Origin: a virus
Strand: one strand, 5' to 3'
Length of the DNA: 26,428 nucleotides
IMG/VR virus record: IMGVR_UViG_3300023178_000226
Coordinates: 1-26,428 of that record
Shown one piece after another: positions 9,524 to 22,768 of this stretch. Each line of letters opens with the position of its first letter. Within the stretch, counting starts at the first letter, position 1. The position numbers and the translations under genes are program-made. The notes beneath the pieces were generated by a model, which was not told the origin of the DNA, made no database searches, and saw nothing but the letters and a program-made list of their open reading frames with translations.

Positions 9524-10174
9524 ATGAAAATTAATTTAGTGAGTTTTTCTAATTCTGCCATCGAAGATGCAGACAATATTACTGATTTGGTAGCTTACTG
9601 CGCTAGGGTCTCGAATCCCGGTAATCAGAGCAATAAAGAAACCAGCGAGAAGTTGATTCGCTACTTGATTAGTCATCAACACTGGTCTCCGTTAGAGATG
9701 GTACATATGTGTCTTGAAATAGAGACAACCCGAGATATCGCAAGACAAATGTTGCGACACCGGTCCTTTTCATTTCAGGAATTCAGTCAAAGATATGCTG
9801 ATCCTGTGAAAGAACTTGACTTTGTGGTTAGAGAAGCCCGACTACAAGACACAAAAAATAGACAAAATTCTATTGATACTGATAATGAATATATAAAAGA
9901 AAGATGGGAACAAGAACAACTTAAAGTTATTCAAACTTCCAAAAACGCATATCAGTGGGCAATAGAAAATGGTATTGCAAAAGAGCAAGCTCGCTCTGTT
10001 TTGCCCGAAGGTAATACTGTATCAAAATTGTATATGAATGGAACATTAAGAAGTTGGATCCACTATATACAACTACGAGCCGCAAACGGAACACAAAAAG
10101 AACACCAAGAAATAGCATTCGCCTGTGCAGAGGTCATATCCAAAGTGTTTCCAATGGCAAAAGAATTTATATAA
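9524..10174 (+). CDS. thyX: Flavin-dependent thymidylate synthase
   Basis: 216 aa, the usual length. ThyX methylates dUMP to dTMP using methylene-tetrahydrofolate, FAD and NADPH. The signature motif is present at 78-91 as RHRSFSFQEFSQRY, matching RHRxxSxxExSxRY. Gln85 is present where Asn is common. The C-terminal part has EQARSVLP and LRSWIHYIQLRAANGTQ, the conserved substrate-binding region. It starts 1 base after the primase stop. It supplies thymidine nucleotides alongside the RNR genes that follow, a common pairing in marine phages whose hosts also use ThyX. Confidence 0.95.
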   Translation: MKINLVSFSNSAIEDADNITDLVAYCARVSNPGNQSNKETSEKLIRYLISHQHWSPLEMVHMCLEIETTRDIARQMLRHRSFSFQEFSQRYADPVKELDFVVREARLQDTKNRQNSIDTDNEYIKERWEQEQLKVIQTSKNAYQWAIENGIAKEQARSVLPEGNTVSKLYMNGTLRSWIHYIQLRAANGTQKEHQEIAFACAEVISKVFPMAKEFI

Positions 10175-10207
10175 ACTTGTTTTAAATTATTAGATTTGGA
10201 GTATTTA

Positions 10208-12007
10208 ATGGACAACTTTGTTCATGGTATCAATGTAGATTACACACGAGATTCACTATTTGACCAACTAGGTCTCAAAAGATTAAAAGAAAGTTACATG
10301 AAAGATGATGAGAATTCTCCACAAGAAAGGTTCGCTTATGTATCAAGTGCTTTTGCAAGTAACAAAGACCATGCTCAACGGCTTTACGAATATAGTTCTA
10401 AGCATTGGTTGTCTTATTCTACTCCTATCCTCAGTTATGGCCGCAGTAAGCGTGGTCTGCCTATATCTTGTTTTCTACCCTATCTTGATGATTCGGCAGA
10501 AGGTCTGGTTGAAACACTATCAGAAGTAAATTGGTTGTCAATGTTAGGTGGTGGTGTCGGTATTGGTATCGGCATCCGTTCATCAGATGATAAGTCTGTT
10601 GGTGTTATGCCCCACCTTAGAACATATGATGCTTCTTCATTGGCTTATCGTCAAGGAAGAACAAGGAGAGGTTCCTATGCGTGTTACCTAGACATATCTC
10701 ATCCAGATATTGAAATGTTCCTAGAGATGAGAAGGCCAACAGGTGACCAGAATATGCGATGCCTGAATCTACATCACGGTATCAACATCACTGATGATTT
10801 TATGCGGATTATTGAGAGGTGTATGATTGATGCTGATGCAGATGATTCATGGCACCTCAAAGACCCACACACCGGTCTAACAAAAGAAATTGTATCAGCA
10901 AAAGAACTTTGGCAACGCATACTTGAAATTCGTATGCAGACTGGCGAACCCTACTTACATTTTATTGATACATCAAATGATAAAATGCCACAATGGCAAA
11001 AAGATTTAGGCCTGTCAATCAGACAATCTAACCTTTGTTCTGAAATCATTTTACCAACCAACGAAGAACGAACAGCTGTATGTTGTCTATCTTCTGTTAA
11101 TTTGGAATACTATGATGATTGGAAAAAAGATGAATTGTTTTTAAAAGATGTTGCTGAAATGTTGGACAATGTGTTACAACATTTTATTGATAACGCTCCT
11201 GACCAGGTTGCACGAGCAAAATATTCAGCTACACAAGAACGAAGTATTGGAATTGGTGCATTAGGTTGGCATGCCTATCTACAAAAGAATAATATTCCAT
11301 GGGAATCAGCACAGGCTGTTGGTAAAAACAAACGAGCATTTGAACACATACGAACCAAATTAAATGAAGCAAACAAAGAACTTGGTCGTAAAAGAGGTTC
11401 AGCGCCCGATGCCAAAGGCACAGGTAATCGCTTCTCACATTTAATGGCGATTGCACCAAATGCTTCATCAAGCATTATTATGGGTAATACATCACCAAGT
11501 ATTGAACCCTATCGTGCAAATGCTTATAGACAAGATACGCTATCTGGTGCTTATCTAAACAAAAACAAATTCTTGGATAAGATTATTAAGAAAGCTTGTG
11601 ATAATGATGGTAAATTAGATTACAATGAAATCTGGTCATCTATTATTGCAAACGATGGTTCAGTTCAACATTTAGATTTACTTGACGATTGGCAAAAAGA
11701 TGTATTTAAAACAGCAATGGAACTAGATCAACGCTGGGTAATACAACATGCAGCTGATAGACAAGAATGGATTGACCAAGCACAAAGCCTAAATGTATTT
11801 TTTAGACCTGATGCTGATATAAGATATATTCATGCTATACACTTCTTAGCATGGAAAGCTGGTTTGAAAACCATGTATTATTGTAGAAGTGAAAAGATTG
11901 GCAAGGCCGATAAAGTCGCCAAAAAAATTGAAAGAGAAGTAATTAAAGAAATTGATTTAACACAAATTGCACAGGAAGAAACCGTGTGTATTGCGTGTGA
12001 AGGATAA
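10208..12007 (+). CDS. nrdA: Ribonucleotide reductase class Ia, alpha subunit (no ATP cone)
   Basis: 599 aa from ATG 10208. GGAG (10198-10201) sits 6 nt before this ATG; a longer frame from TTG 10196 would place the ribosome site inside the gene. It reduces NDPs to dNDPs. Catalytic residues visible: Cys88 (LPISCFLP), Asn275-Cys277-Glu279 (NLCSE), the partner Cys in TAVCCLSSVNL, the radical-path Tyr557-Tyr558 (MYYCRSEK), and the C-terminal CxxC (594-597) that thioredoxin reduces. The N-terminal ATP-cone of cellular enzymes is absent, so dATP feedback inhibition should be lost. The operon continues with thioredoxin-fold genes and the beta subunit. Confidence 0.95.
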   Translation: MDNFVHGINVDYTRDSLFDQLGLKRLKESYMKDDENSPQERFAYVSSAFASNKDHAQRLYEYSSKHWLSYSTPILSYGRSKRGLPISCFLPYLDDSAEGLVETLSEVNWLSMLGGGVGIGIGIRSSDDKSVGVMPHLRTYDASSLAYRQGRTRRGSYACYLDISHPDIEMFLEMRRPTGDQNMRCLNLHHGINITDDFMRIIERCMIDADADDSWHLKDPHTGLTKEIVSAKELWQRILEIRMQTGEPYLHFIDTSNDKMPQWQKDLGLSIRQSNLCSEIILPTNEERTAVCCLSSVNLEYYDDWKKDELFLKDVAEMLDNVLQHFIDNAPDQVARAKYSATQERSIGIGALGWHAYLQKNNIPWESAQAVGKNKRAFEHIRTKLNEANKELGRKRGSAPDAKGTGNRFSHLMAIAPNASSSIIMGNTSPSIEPYRANAYRQDTLSGAYLNKNKFLDKIIKKACDNDGKLDYNEIWSSIIANDGSVQHLDLLDDWQKDVFKTAMELDQRWVIQHAADRQEWIDQAQSLNVFFRPDADIRYIHAIHFLAWKAGLKTMYYCRSEKIGKADKVAKKIEREVIKEIDLTQIAQEETVCIACEG

Positions 12008-12025
12008 ATTTAAAGGAGAATAACT

Positions 12026-12274
12026 ATGGCAAAATCTGCTATACGATTTACAGCATCTTGGGATACCATAGGTGCAACACTTGCTGAAAATGTTACAACA
12101 GCTGACAGTGAACTTTCCGTTTCGGTTGTTGATATTGATGAAAATTCAGCAACAGCTGAAACATACAATGTAACACAAATTCCAACTTTTGTATTATTGG
12201 AAGATGGCGTGGAAGTTAATAGATTTGTTGGTATGAAATCCATACCAGAGATAAATGATTGGTTAAATGGATAA
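12026..12274 (+). CDS. Thioredoxin-fold protein lacking the active-site cysteines
   Basis: 82 aa, aligning without gaps over the start of the next gene product: FTASWDTIGA (8-17) against FAASWCQPCK (8-17). Both redox cysteines are replaced (Asp13, Gly16). The cis-Pro segment QIPTFVLLEDG and the C-terminal helix IPEINDWLNG are kept, so the fold should be intact while dithiol chemistry is impossible. There is no Cys at all in the protein. Ribosome site AAAGGAG is 8 nt upstream. It lies between RNR alpha and the active thioredoxin. It may be a binding partner of RNR or a decoy or assembly factor; function unknown. Confidence 0.8.
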   Translation: MAKSAIRFTASWDTIGATLAENVTTADSELSVSVVDIDENSATAETYNVTQIPTFVLLEDGVEVNRFVGMKSIPEINDWLNG

Positions 12275-12284
12275 GAGGAACTAA

Positions 12285-12533
12285 ATGAGCAAAAAGATTT
12301 TAAAGTTTGCAGCTTCTTGGTGTCAGCCATGTAAAATGCTGAGCAAGACAATTGCAGGAATGGAAATAGAAACACAAATTGAAGAAATTGACATTGACGA
12401 ACAGGAAGAATTAGCAATACAGTATCAAATTCGTTCAGTACCAACTCTAGTTATGTTAGATGATGATAAAGAGGTAAAACGAGTAACAGGTATGCAATCA
12501 TCAACACAACTGGAGGCATGGATAAATGGCTAA
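12285..12533 (+). CDS. trxA: Thioredoxin
   Basis: 82 aa, short for thioredoxin (about 105) but comparable to small phage thioredoxins/glutaredoxins such as T4 NrdC. The active site WCQPC is at residues 12-16 and the cis-Pro motif SVPTLVML follows. The C-terminal helix ends LEAWING. It should reduce the C-terminal CxxC of the phage RNR alpha subunit after each turnover. It overlaps the start of nrdB by 8 bases, so it is made with the RNR subunits. It is a paralogue of the Cys-less protein just upstream. Confidence 0.92.
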   Translation: MSKKILKFAASWCQPCKMLSKTIAGMEIETQIEEIDIDEQEELAIQYQIRSVPTLVMLDDDKEVKRVTGMQSSTQLEAWING

Positions 12534-13515
12534 AGATGAAGTTAATCTACTTAAAGAACGAAGCAGTTTTAAACCTTTCTACTATCCTTGGGCATATGAT
12601 GCCTGGTTAAAACACGAACAGTCACATTGGTTACATTCAGAAGTTCCAATGGCAGAAGATGTAAAAGATTGGAAAAATAAACTCACACAACCACAAAAAC
12701 ATTTTCTGACGAACATCTTTCGTTTCTTCACACAAGGTGATGTTGATGTTGCTGGTGGTTATGTAAAGAATTATCTTCCATATTTTCAACAACCAGAAGT
12801 TCGTATGATGCTATTAGGTTTTGCTGCTCGTGAAGCACTTCATGTTGCCGCTTATTCTCATCTGATTGAAACTTTAGGTATGCCAGAATCCACATACAAC
12901 GAATTCCTAGAATATGAAGCGATGAAAAACAAACACGATTATGTGTTAGACATTAGCTCAAGAAATGGTGATAAACAATCCACTGCTACTCATATTGCTG
13001 TGTTCTCTGCCTTTACGGAAGGTATGCAATTGTTTTCATCATTCATTATGTTATTAAACTTCCCACGCCATGGTTTAATGAAAGGCATGGGTCAGATTGT
13101 GACATGGTCTATTGTTGATGAAACCATGCACACCGAAAATATGATTAAATTGTTCCGAACATACATAGAGGAAAATAAATCTATTTGGAACGACACTTTA
13201 AAGTCTCGTATATATACTATTGCAGAGAAAATGGTCGAACTTGAAGATAAATTTATTGATTTAGCTTTTGAAATGGGTGACATGCCTGATTTGACTGCCG
13301 ACCAAGTTAAACATTATATTCGTTACATTTGTGATAGACGACTTATTTCATTAGGCCTAAAAGGGGTGTATAAGGTGAAGAAGAATCCACTCTTATGGGT
13401 TGAAGAAATGATTAACGCACCTACCCACACCAATTTCTTTGAGAACCGTGCCACTGATTATGCAAAAGGTGCTTTGAAAGGTTCTTGGGAAGATGTTTGG
13501 GGTCAGGCTGCATAA
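12526..13515 (+). CDS. nrdB: Ribonucleotide reductase class Ia, beta subunit
   Basis: 329 aa. The beta subunit holds the di-iron centre and the tyrosyl radical that drives the alpha subunit. Metal ligands and radical Tyr are visible: Glu103-x-x-His106 with Tyr110 in REALHVAAYSHL, Glu165 in FTEGMQLF, and Glu199-x-x-His202 in VDETMHTEN. The acidic first ligand is within QGDVDVAGG (70-78). The start overlaps the thioredoxin gene. The need for iron and a reducing partner may explain the Fe-S assembly genes that follow. Confidence 0.95.
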   Translation: MAKDEVNLLKERSSFKPFYYPWAYDAWLKHEQSHWLHSEVPMAEDVKDWKNKLTQPQKHFLTNIFRFFTQGDVDVAGGYVKNYLPYFQQPEVRMMLLGFAAREALHVAAYSHLIETLGMPESTYNEFLEYEAMKNKHDYVLDISSRNGDKQSTATHIAVFSAFTEGMQLFSSFIMLLNFPRHGLMKGMGQIVTWSIVDETMHTENMIKLFRTYIEENKSIWNDTLKSRIYTIAEKMVELEDKFIDLAFEMGDMPDLTADQVKHYIRYICDRRLISLGLKGVYKVKKNPLLWVEEMINAPTHTNFFENRATDYAKGALKGSWEDVWGQAA

Positions 13516-13740: not shown

Positions 13741-14076
13741 ATGATAACCATTGAACAATCTGCCACCGATAAAATCATAAACCTTATCCAAGACGAAGAA
13801 GACAAGGATAAAATAAAAGGTTTAAGATTATTTGTTGAAGGTGGTGGATGTTCAGGTTTTCAATATGGTTTCACATGGGACCAAGAAATAAATGAAGATG
13901 ATTTCGTGTTTGATTTAGAAGGCACGGAACTTAAAGTTATTGTTGATGCTATGTCATCACAATATCTACAAGGTTCAACTATCAAATATACCAAATCAAT
14001 GATGGCTGAACAATTTGAAATTAAAAATCCAAACGCTTCTTCAAAATGCGGTTGTGGTTCTAGTTTTGCAGTATAG
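13741..14076 (+). CDS. iscA: A-type iron-sulfur carrier (IscA/ErpA/SufA family)
   Basis: 111 aa, the standard size. The three Cys that bind Fe or a [2Fe-2S] cluster are in place: Cys37 in VEGGGCSGFQYGF, and Cys103/Cys105 in KCGCGSSF near the C terminus. The family delivers clusters from the IscU scaffold to client enzymes. Only 3 bases separate it from the membrane protein stop, and IscU follows 7 bases downstream. Which of IscA, ErpA or SufA it is closest to cannot be told here. A phage-borne pair of carrier and scaffold implies cluster building or repair during infection. Confidence 0.92.
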   Translation: MITIEQSATDKIINLIQDEEDKDKIKGLRLFVEGGGCSGFQYGFTWDQEINEDDFVFDLEGTELKVIVDAMSSQYLQGSTIKYTKSMMAEQFEIKNPNASSKCGCGSSFAV

Positions 14077-14083
14077 GAGTTAA

Positions 14084-14497
14084 ATGGCTTATTCAGATAA
14101 AGTTTTAGACCATTACGAAAATCCAAGAAATGTGGGTTCATTGGATAAAAATGATCCAACTGTTGGTACTGGTATGGTTGGTGCTCCTGCCTGTGGTGAT
14201 GTAATGAAGTTGCAGATACAAGTCAACGATGAAGGAGTTATCACTAATGCGAAGTTCAAGACTTACGGCTGTGGCTCAGCGATTGCAAGCTCGTCTCTTG
14301 TCACTGAATTACTCAAGGGAAAGACGCTTACAGAAGCAGAAACAATTAGAAATTCAGCAATCGCAGAAGAACTATCTCTGCCACCTGTTAAAATCCACTG
14401 TTCAGTTTTGGCGGAAGATGCGATAAAATCAGCAATACAAGATTATAAAAAGAAACAAAGTCAAAAAGACCTATCTATACCAGTTGTAGGAGTATAA
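14084..14497 (+). CDS. iscU: Fe-S cluster scaffold protein IscU
   Basis: 137 aa. Cluster ligands fall at the same residue numbers as in E. coli IscU: Cys37 and Asp39 (APACGDVM), Cys63 (YGCGSAIASSS), and Cys106 (KIHCSVLAEDA). The chaperone-binding motif LPPVK is at 99-103. HscA/HscB recognition is therefore kept, so it can work with the host cysteine desulfurase and chaperones, none of which is encoded in this window. The tail after residue 120 is somewhat longer than in E. coli. It follows the A-type carrier in the same transcript. Confidence 0.95.
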   Translation: MAYSDKVLDHYENPRNVGSLDKNDPTVGTGMVGAPACGDVMKLQIQVNDEGVITNAKFKTYGCGSAIASSSLVTELLKGKTLTEAETIRNSAIAEELSLPPVKIHCSVLAEDAIKSAIQDYKKKQSQKDLSIPVVGV

Positions 14498-21553: not shown

Positions 21554-22768
21554 ATGAAAACAAAAGATACGGTGAAGTTCTTTGAGCAAAACAAATATGT
21601 TCATCTTAAAGATTTTTTAGATATAAACAATTGTGGTGAACTTACACAAATACTCCAAAATTTAGTTGCAACCGGCCAAACAACCAAGGATTCACAATGT
21701 CCTAAGTCTGAGGCTATTCATGGCAACATTACCTTTGATACACTTCTTAATGATTTAACACCACACTTTGAAAAGGCCTGTGGTAAAAAACTATATCCAA
21801 CATATTCATACGCTCGTCTTTATAAACCAGGTGAGACGCTAACTATCCATTCAGACCGTCCAGCTTGTGAAATCAGTGCTACTATTACATTAGGGTTGCA
21901 AGGAAAAGCTTGGCCAATATTCATGGCCGACCCAGCCTTTGATGAAAGTGAGGCTGAGAAATATAAATCACAAGGCACCGGCCAATTTGAAAATATCAAA
22001 GTTAAAAATATATCAAAGGTGAATATGAGTGTTGGTGATGCTGTTTTATATCGTGGCATGGATAAAATACATTGGCGTGAAGAATTTGAAGGTGAATGGC
22101 AGGCACAAGTATTTTTACATTATGTTGACCAAGATGGTCCACACGCTGACCAAAAATATGATGGCCGTGAAAGCTTGGGTATTTCAAAAACAGATGTCAC
22201 ACAAAGAGATGGACAGAGGATTTTAACAGATGCTGCTGTATTTCAAAACCATTTATCACTCAAATTTTGTCAAAGAATCATTAAAGAATATTCAAAGAAA
22301 AAGCACACTAAAGAAGAACCTTACATAGGAGGTAGCGGTGATAGTGGTACTGTTGATAGAAATATAAGAGATGTTCAAAGATTGTTATTACCACAAAATC
22401 AAGGCATTGGTGGTATTCTTACATCAACAGCACTCAATTCTAATCACTATTGGTGGCAATATGATATCACCCACAGTAACCAAACAGAATTTTTAATGTA
22501 TGAACCTGACGGCCACTACAATTCTCATGTTGATACCTTTCATGCACATAGTAACGAAACACGCAAATTAACCGCATTGGCATTTTTAAATGATGATTTT
22601 GAAGGCGGTCAATTTTATATCAATGCAAATGGTAATCTGTATTACCCACCACAACAAGCAGGAACAGTATTAGTTTTCCCGTCTTTTATGGTACATGGTG
22701 TTGAACCTGTTACAAAAGGGATTAGATACTCTGTTGTCACATGGATGGTAGGACCATATTTTAAATAA
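21554..22768 (+). CDS. Double-domain 2OG-Fe(II) oxygenase
   Basis: 404 aa made of two tandem double-stranded beta-helix units. The C-terminal unit is complete: His325-x-Asp327 (HVD), His381 (FMVHGVEP) and Arg391 (KGIRYSVVTW) for Fe(II) and 2-oxoglutarate, as in PiuC/prolyl-4-hydroxylase types. The N-terminal unit keeps His99-x-Asp101 (IHSDRPACE) and a distal His173 (KIHWREEF), but where Arg is expected it has EWQAQVF, so 2OG binding may differ. Substrate unknown; such oxygenases are frequent beside fibre genes in marine T4-like phages and may modify proteins, DNA or glycans. The ATG is 20 bases past the previous stop. Confidence 0.85.
   Translation: MKTKDTVKFFEQNKYVHLKDFLDINNCGELTQILQNLVATGQTTKDSQCPKSEAIHGNITFDTLLNDLTPHFEKACGKKLYPTYSYARLYKPGETLTIHSDRPACEISATITLGLQGKAWPIFMADPAFDESEAEKYKSQGTGQFENIKVKNISKVNMSVGDAVLYRGMDKIHWREEFEGEWQAQVFLHYVDQDGPHADQKYDGRESLGISKTDVTQRDGQRILTDAAVFQNHLSLKFCQRIIKEYSKKKHTKEEPYIGGSGDSGTVDRNIRDVQRLLLPQNQGIGGILTSTALNSNHYWWQYDITHSNQTEFLMYEPDGHYNSHVDTFHAHSNETRKLTALAFLNDDFEGGQFYINANGNLYYPPQQAGTVLVFPSFMVHGVEPVTKGIRYSVVTWMVGPYFK

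Follow-up and report, generated by a model that had tools for sequence, protein, structure and literature searches.

The stretch of viral DNA analyzed here (the window) is a whole IMG/VR virus record of 26,428 bases, in which a primase gene is followed, in order, by thyX, nrdA, two thioredoxin-like genes, nrdB, an open reading frame (ORF) of 69 aa, and HesB- and NifU-type genes. The thymidylate synthase gene thyX (9524-10174; plus strand, as for every feature located here up to the NifU-type gene; PF02511) belongs to the same cluster as nrdA (10196-12007), which encodes the large subunit of a class I ribonucleotide reductase (RNR; PF02867/PF00317; NCBIfam PRK09102, 747.8 bits against a cut-off of 620) and whose translation ends in the C-terminal tail CIACEG. 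A ribosome-binding-like sequence, TAAAGGAGAATAAC, can be read directly at 12011-12024, with AAAGGAG lying 7 bases 5' of the ATG of the first thioredoxin-like gene (P0001; 12026-12274). This gene encodes a cysteine-less protein of thioredoxin fold, hereafter pseudo-Trx, in which WDTIG replaces WCxxC, and it is followed in tandem by a gene for an active-type thioredoxin with the motif WCQPC (P0002; 12285-12533). The small-subunit gene nrdB comes next (12526-13515; PF00268; NCBIfam PRK09614.1-5, 446.3 bits against a cut-off of 237). Shortly 3' of nrdB lie the genes for a HesB/IscA-type Fe-S protein (13741-14076; PF01521, 62.3 bits) and a NifU-type Fe-S scaffold (14084-14497; PF01592, 177.7 bits; phrog_8429), and in two other viral loci (L101 and L266) a HesB-type gene stands directly upstream of the thioredoxin gene. 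Elsewhere in the window, after the tail-fibre genes, an ORF of 404 aa (21554-22768) matches phage protein families annotated as ferrochelatase and as 2OG-Fe(II) oxygenase. Genes of unknown function are sometimes interspersed with phage nrdA and nrdB, according to an excerpt of one study (PMC3653736).

The preliminary description of this DNA had noticed two tandem 82-aa proteins of thioredoxin fold, the first of which carries WDTIG at the WCxxC site and is free of Cys but keeps the cis-proline and the overall length; translations, alignment, profile searches and structure models bear out both observations. Both ORFs are intact and 82 aa long. Pseudo-Trx has no Cys among its 82 residues and hence lacks the CxxC of a redox-active thioredoxin; judged from its translation, the protein is incapable of dithiol exchange. 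Its P53 occupies a proline column that is invariant in all 99 active thioredoxin relatives, which by alignment is the cis-Pro position. Pseudo-Trx (38.3 bits) and P0002 (61 bits) both exceed the curated PF00085 cut-off of 23.5 bits, and both miss the cut-off of 96.8 bits of the NCBIfam thioredoxin equivalog TIGR01068 (42.2 and 72.1 bits, respectively). AlphaFold2 predicts a confident thioredoxin fold for pseudo-Trx (pLDDT 89.9, pTM 0.78) with the same order of structural elements as in the P0002 model (pLDDT 94.1); the active-site helix is modelled to start at residue 16 in pseudo-Trx vs. residue 14 in P0002. When the pseudo-Trx model was compared with the PDB using Foldseek, the 50 matches listed were mostly thioredoxins or thioredoxin fusions (TM by query 0.79-0.88). 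The best of them, 9bxs_E (TM 0.85), comes from a ribonucleotide reductase complex of Bacillus subtilis, and the sequence group of this chain is labelled thioredoxin. The G+C content of the pseudo-Trx gene by codon position (0.49, 0.42, and 0.17) is coding-like.

The residues that pseudo-Trx has lost are not evenly spread. It retains 12 of the 18 columns that are conserved in at least 85% of the 99 active thioredoxins, a threshold of our own choosing, and the six it lacks are C13, P15, C16, K17, R50, and V52, the last through a conservative change to Ile, which occupies this column in 5% of the active proteins. R50 and V52 lie just before the conserved Pro, and all six losses fall on the active-site/cis-Pro face. 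No single active relative lacks more than four of the 18 columns, and the difference in losses between the four active-site columns and the other fourteen gives a Fisher p of 0.005. Over residues 13-28, one of five segments and picked after all five had been viewed, pseudo-Trx has a mean identity of 16.5% to 75 active thioredoxins, the lowest mean of any active protein being 28%; outside these residues its mean identity of 39% is within the range of the active proteins. Compared with the L266 thioredoxin, 2 of 16 positions are identical within residues 13-28 vs. 37 of 65 in the rest (p 0.0017), and compared with that of a third locus, L021, 4 of 16 vs. 28 of 64 (p 0.25).

To the best of what sequence scans of viruses reveal, pseudo-Trx is rare. 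These scans rely on exact short peptide matches and their counts are among the matches listed, such that distant copies of pseudo-Trx may escape them. Among 2.9 million viral contigs, a scan with pseudo-Trx returned one full-length relative, on contig L001 (IMGVR_UViG_3300018428_002377), whose protein is 100% identical; the second match (L002) is a fragment in which the contig end falls before the active site. Contig L001 is 99.87% identical to the window: of 8,964 positions in the alignment, 12 differ, all of them outside the genes for pseudo-Trx and P0002. The two contigs are thus independent assemblies from a single virus population. Pseudo-Trx is therefore not an assembly artefact, since a second IMG/VR contig carries the identical gene. 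It nevertheless comes close to being unique to the contig in which it was first noticed, a result that the preliminary description had named as refuting its proposal: the two known copies, identical to one another, come from two contigs of one virus population.

Further viral scans were made with P0002, NrdB, NrdA, NifU, and ThyX and with two alignments as queries. A scan with patterns that spare the active site found 77 loci, all 77 with a thioredoxin, of which L001 has the one copy without CxxC and three end before or within the motif; CxxC is not scorable in the contig-end fragments L002, L086/L328, L310, and L319. When 480 viral loci were reduced to 225 distinct nrdA-nrdB intervals by merging identical ones, 135 contained a single CxxC thioredoxin and 88 none. 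The remaining two comprise L001, with a CxxC thioredoxin and pseudo-Trx, and L060, with a truncated thioredoxin. The search of RNR operons for a cysteine-less copy that the preliminary description had proposed thus finds the pair in 1 of 225 intervals. The truncated gene (L060:5396-5581) retains only the C-terminal part of a thioredoxin, identical to that of L054, the N-terminal half being unrelated sequence. An active thioredoxin stands in 135 of these intervals, and among the NCBIfam models is one for a glutaredoxin fused to NrdB (PRK12759, which the NrdB of the window matches below cut-off), so redoxins are functionally tied to the nrdA-nrdB slot. The nearest NrdB relatives with both genes (L021, L022, L023/L006, L024, L026, and L027; 90-96% identical) have a single CxxC thioredoxin and no pseudo-Trx.

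Pseudo-Trx was also sought beyond these contigs. A scan of genome contigs for a host or prophage copy produced 212 pattern matches and no relative. Among cultured phages, 234 records match pseudo-Trx at E values up to 10, all at less than 60% identity, and the four examined for the motif all have C-x-x-C. In the open-licence PMC literature, screened by titles and the starts of abstracts, no pair of a cysteine-less and an active thioredoxin in a phage RNR operon was found. Two other loci deserve mention. Tandem thioredoxins occur at L011:5691-6243, both with CxxC (WCPPC and WCGPC); the cluster around them does not resemble an RNR operon but looks like one of tail/baseplate genes. A typical thioredoxin with WCVPC occurs in the first annotated ORF of a record of an ssRNA phage (NC_073930; L262:154-564), where it is unexpected and possibly reflects a chimeric assembly.

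The origin of pseudo-Trx was addressed with phylogenetic trees. By sequence, it is related to the thioredoxins of the RNR slot, its best identities being 49% to the L266 and 48% to the L101 thioredoxin; in both of these clusters a HesB-type gene, the thioredoxin gene and nrdB follow one another, and the L101 cluster also shows nrdA upstream. On a tree built from 100 thioredoxins (hits of at least 70 aa), the branch of pseudo-Trx is long, at 1.51 changes per column. A later tree, thinned from 222 rows to 76, groups pseudo-Trx with the L101/L266 thioredoxins at 100/97, and in two comparisons constrained trees with pseudo-Trx in the L021 group beat the free search by 11.4 and 19.3. For a comparison of four trees, L261-L263, L320, L321, L324, L326, and L327 were dropped and the alignment was thinned to 49 rows; relative to the free tree (0), placement in the L021 group scored -2.8 (p-AU 0.50) and placement with L101/L266 -7.7 (p-AU 0.38), and the test rejected none of the four. 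Recent tandem duplication of P0002 is the least favoured origin: the two neighbours are 34% identical, and placing them together lies 20.5 log-likelihood units under the best tree (p-AU 0.208). Judged from these sequences, pseudo-Trx is unlikely to have arisen by recent copying of the gene next to it.

P0002 itself pairs with the L006 thioredoxin in the 100-thioredoxin tree (100/97; 76% identical), and the thioredoxins of L021, L024, L026, and L027 lie elsewhere. As these tree positions differ while NrdB is 90-96% identical across the same viruses, relatives seem to have exchanged the thioredoxin that stands between nrdA and nrdB, and redoxins may be swapped at this site with particular frequency. 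A compensated frameshift behind the rewritten segment was considered at the DNA level against six relatives and rejected: only L101, at an offset of +12 bases, beat shuffled sequences (p 0.002), and that match is in frame, by four codons. This hints that CxxC may have been lost via a short deletion and a balancing insertion rather than substitutions.

What, then, might pseudo-Trx be? Our best explanation, to which we give a probability of about one in two, is that of a non-catalytic, fold-retaining derivative of thioredoxin that serves as a candidate protein-binding module on a member of the co-encoded RNR/Trx assembly. Its ancestor would be a relative of the thioredoxins that many such phages keep between nrdA and nrdB, to which it is homologous. 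In one virus lineage the Cys-x-Pro-Cys-Lys motif and, from the cis-Pro loop, the Arg have been lost and the active-site helix rewritten, with the core of the fold kept. A point against the explanation is that a large share of this divergence may be older than the cysteine loss, falling in a time when the protein was still active. The C-terminal Cys pair of NrdA is presumably reduced by the neighbouring P0002, and the dead copy would persist as a small binding module of altered specificity. The RNR/Trx module is the first candidate partner because of the position of the gene, and pseudo-Trx is probably a binder of that module. An altered specificity is indicated by the loss of the Arg and of the active-site face together with an unusual acidity: the net charge of -9 is the second lowest of 76 thioredoxins compared, and the four Lys and Arg residues are the fewest. 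The loss of conserved substrate-docking residues, as read from the alignment, speaks against a simple model in which the same clients are bound and not reduced. Counting further against this explanation are the confinement of pseudo-Trx to one virus population, with its two identical copies, and the fact that very close relatives live without it.

The chief rival, which we regard as possible but doubtful, supposes that pseudo-Trx is a surplus thioredoxin recently inactivated: once a second thioredoxin had arrived, the active site of the older one was lost, and that gene now drifts without function. It would account for the confinement of pseudo-Trx to one population and for its long branch, and the setting is suitable, given an active thioredoxin next door, thioredoxins apparently exchanged in this very slot, and a truncated remnant of one in the same slot of L060. 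However, the gene has no stop, matches its neighbour in length and has a ribosome-binding-like site. Moreover, in a simulation of neutral divergence from four relatives, with indels left out, 1.2-4.2% of genes stay stop-free, and the columns of the fold are retained where the active-site face is lost. The gene does not look like a decaying one: its frame is intact and its losses are concentrated at the active-site face. Of the earlier proposal that a fold conserved without redox chemistry implies a new job, the premise stands, in that the fold is predicted to be retained (AlphaFold2), the redox site is lost (alignment), and the pattern of loss across alignment, regional identities and simulation is unlike uniform decay; the new job itself would be the candidate binding role set out above.

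A narrower form of the binding-module explanation would make pseudo-Trx an RNR accessory factor that docks on NrdA or NrdB as a thioredoxin does but leaves it unreduced; in this way it would regulate turnover or keep the active thioredoxin close at hand. The location of the gene between nrdA and trx-nrdB, the retention of the cis-Pro and G69 columns, and the best PDB match of the predicted model, a thioredoxin in an RNR complex, are consistent with such a factor. It is nonetheless unlikely, as R50, K17, and the CxPC face, which are the expected client contacts, have been lost and all near relatives manage without pseudo-Trx. More specific still, and quite unlikely in our estimation, would be a viral RNR with a dedicated non-catalytic subunit of thioredoxin fold, derived from an operon-type thioredoxin by rewriting of its active-site helix, that binds the assembly of NrdA, NrdB, and thioredoxin and regulates or tethers it.

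Accessory phage genes are often restricted to single lineages, as pseudo-Trx is, and its unusual, acidic surface would also suit an inhibitor or decoy of a host protein (host thioredoxin, thioredoxin reductase, a protease adaptor, or a defence protein), but the gene sits in a nucleotide-synthesis cluster and we consider this role very unlikely. The weakest reading, and a highly improbable one, is the analogy with T7, where excerpts of two studies have a redox-inactive thioredoxin suffice (PMC3997047; PMC6570768): a DNA polymerase is found in 0 of 31 ORFs of the window (a genome fragment) scanned against family libraries, the pseudo-Trx gene belongs to the RNR cluster, and the rewritten part of the protein, which has also lost the Arg before the cis-Pro, corresponds to the active-site region through which host thioredoxin binds gp5 in T7.

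Several known systems provide context for the binding-module explanation. The phage thioredoxins between nrdA and nrdB (for example, L101, L266, and L021; PF00085) share with pseudo-Trx the fold, a length of about 80 aa, a place beside nrdB and up to 49% identity, but all 99 compared have WCxPC, in contrast to the cysteine-less WDTIG protein. HyaE/HupG are chaperones not known to perform CxxC chemistry. Their family (PF07449) also has the thioredoxin fold, although pseudo-Trx matches it at 16.4 bits, below the cut-off of 22. Another parallel is offered by the plant proteins NCP and RCB, whose thioredoxin-like domains, with a solved NMR structure, lack CxxC and are negative in the insulin reductase assay, and for which a role in protein-protein interaction has been proposed, according to an excerpt of that work (PMC6570768); unlike pseudo-Trx, these are proteins of large size, and the plant setting in which they act is unrelated. 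In T7, as far as excerpts of the literature go, E. coli thioredoxin is the processivity factor of gp5 in a role without redox chemistry (PMC3997047), binding through its active-site region (PMC6570768), but this is an ordinary host thioredoxin with its cysteines rather than a phage-encoded dead copy, which here has no link to a polymerase.

Pseudo-thioredoxins without chemistry are thus already known in plants, as is a host thioredoxin in such a role in T7. Our claim is a modest one, because the evidence comes from one virus population. A phage-encoded, wholly cysteine-less thioredoxin that shares its RNR operon with an active relative would nevertheless offer a compact test case for the passage from redox enzyme to binding module, and pseudo-Trx could reveal a new control of viral dNTP supply.
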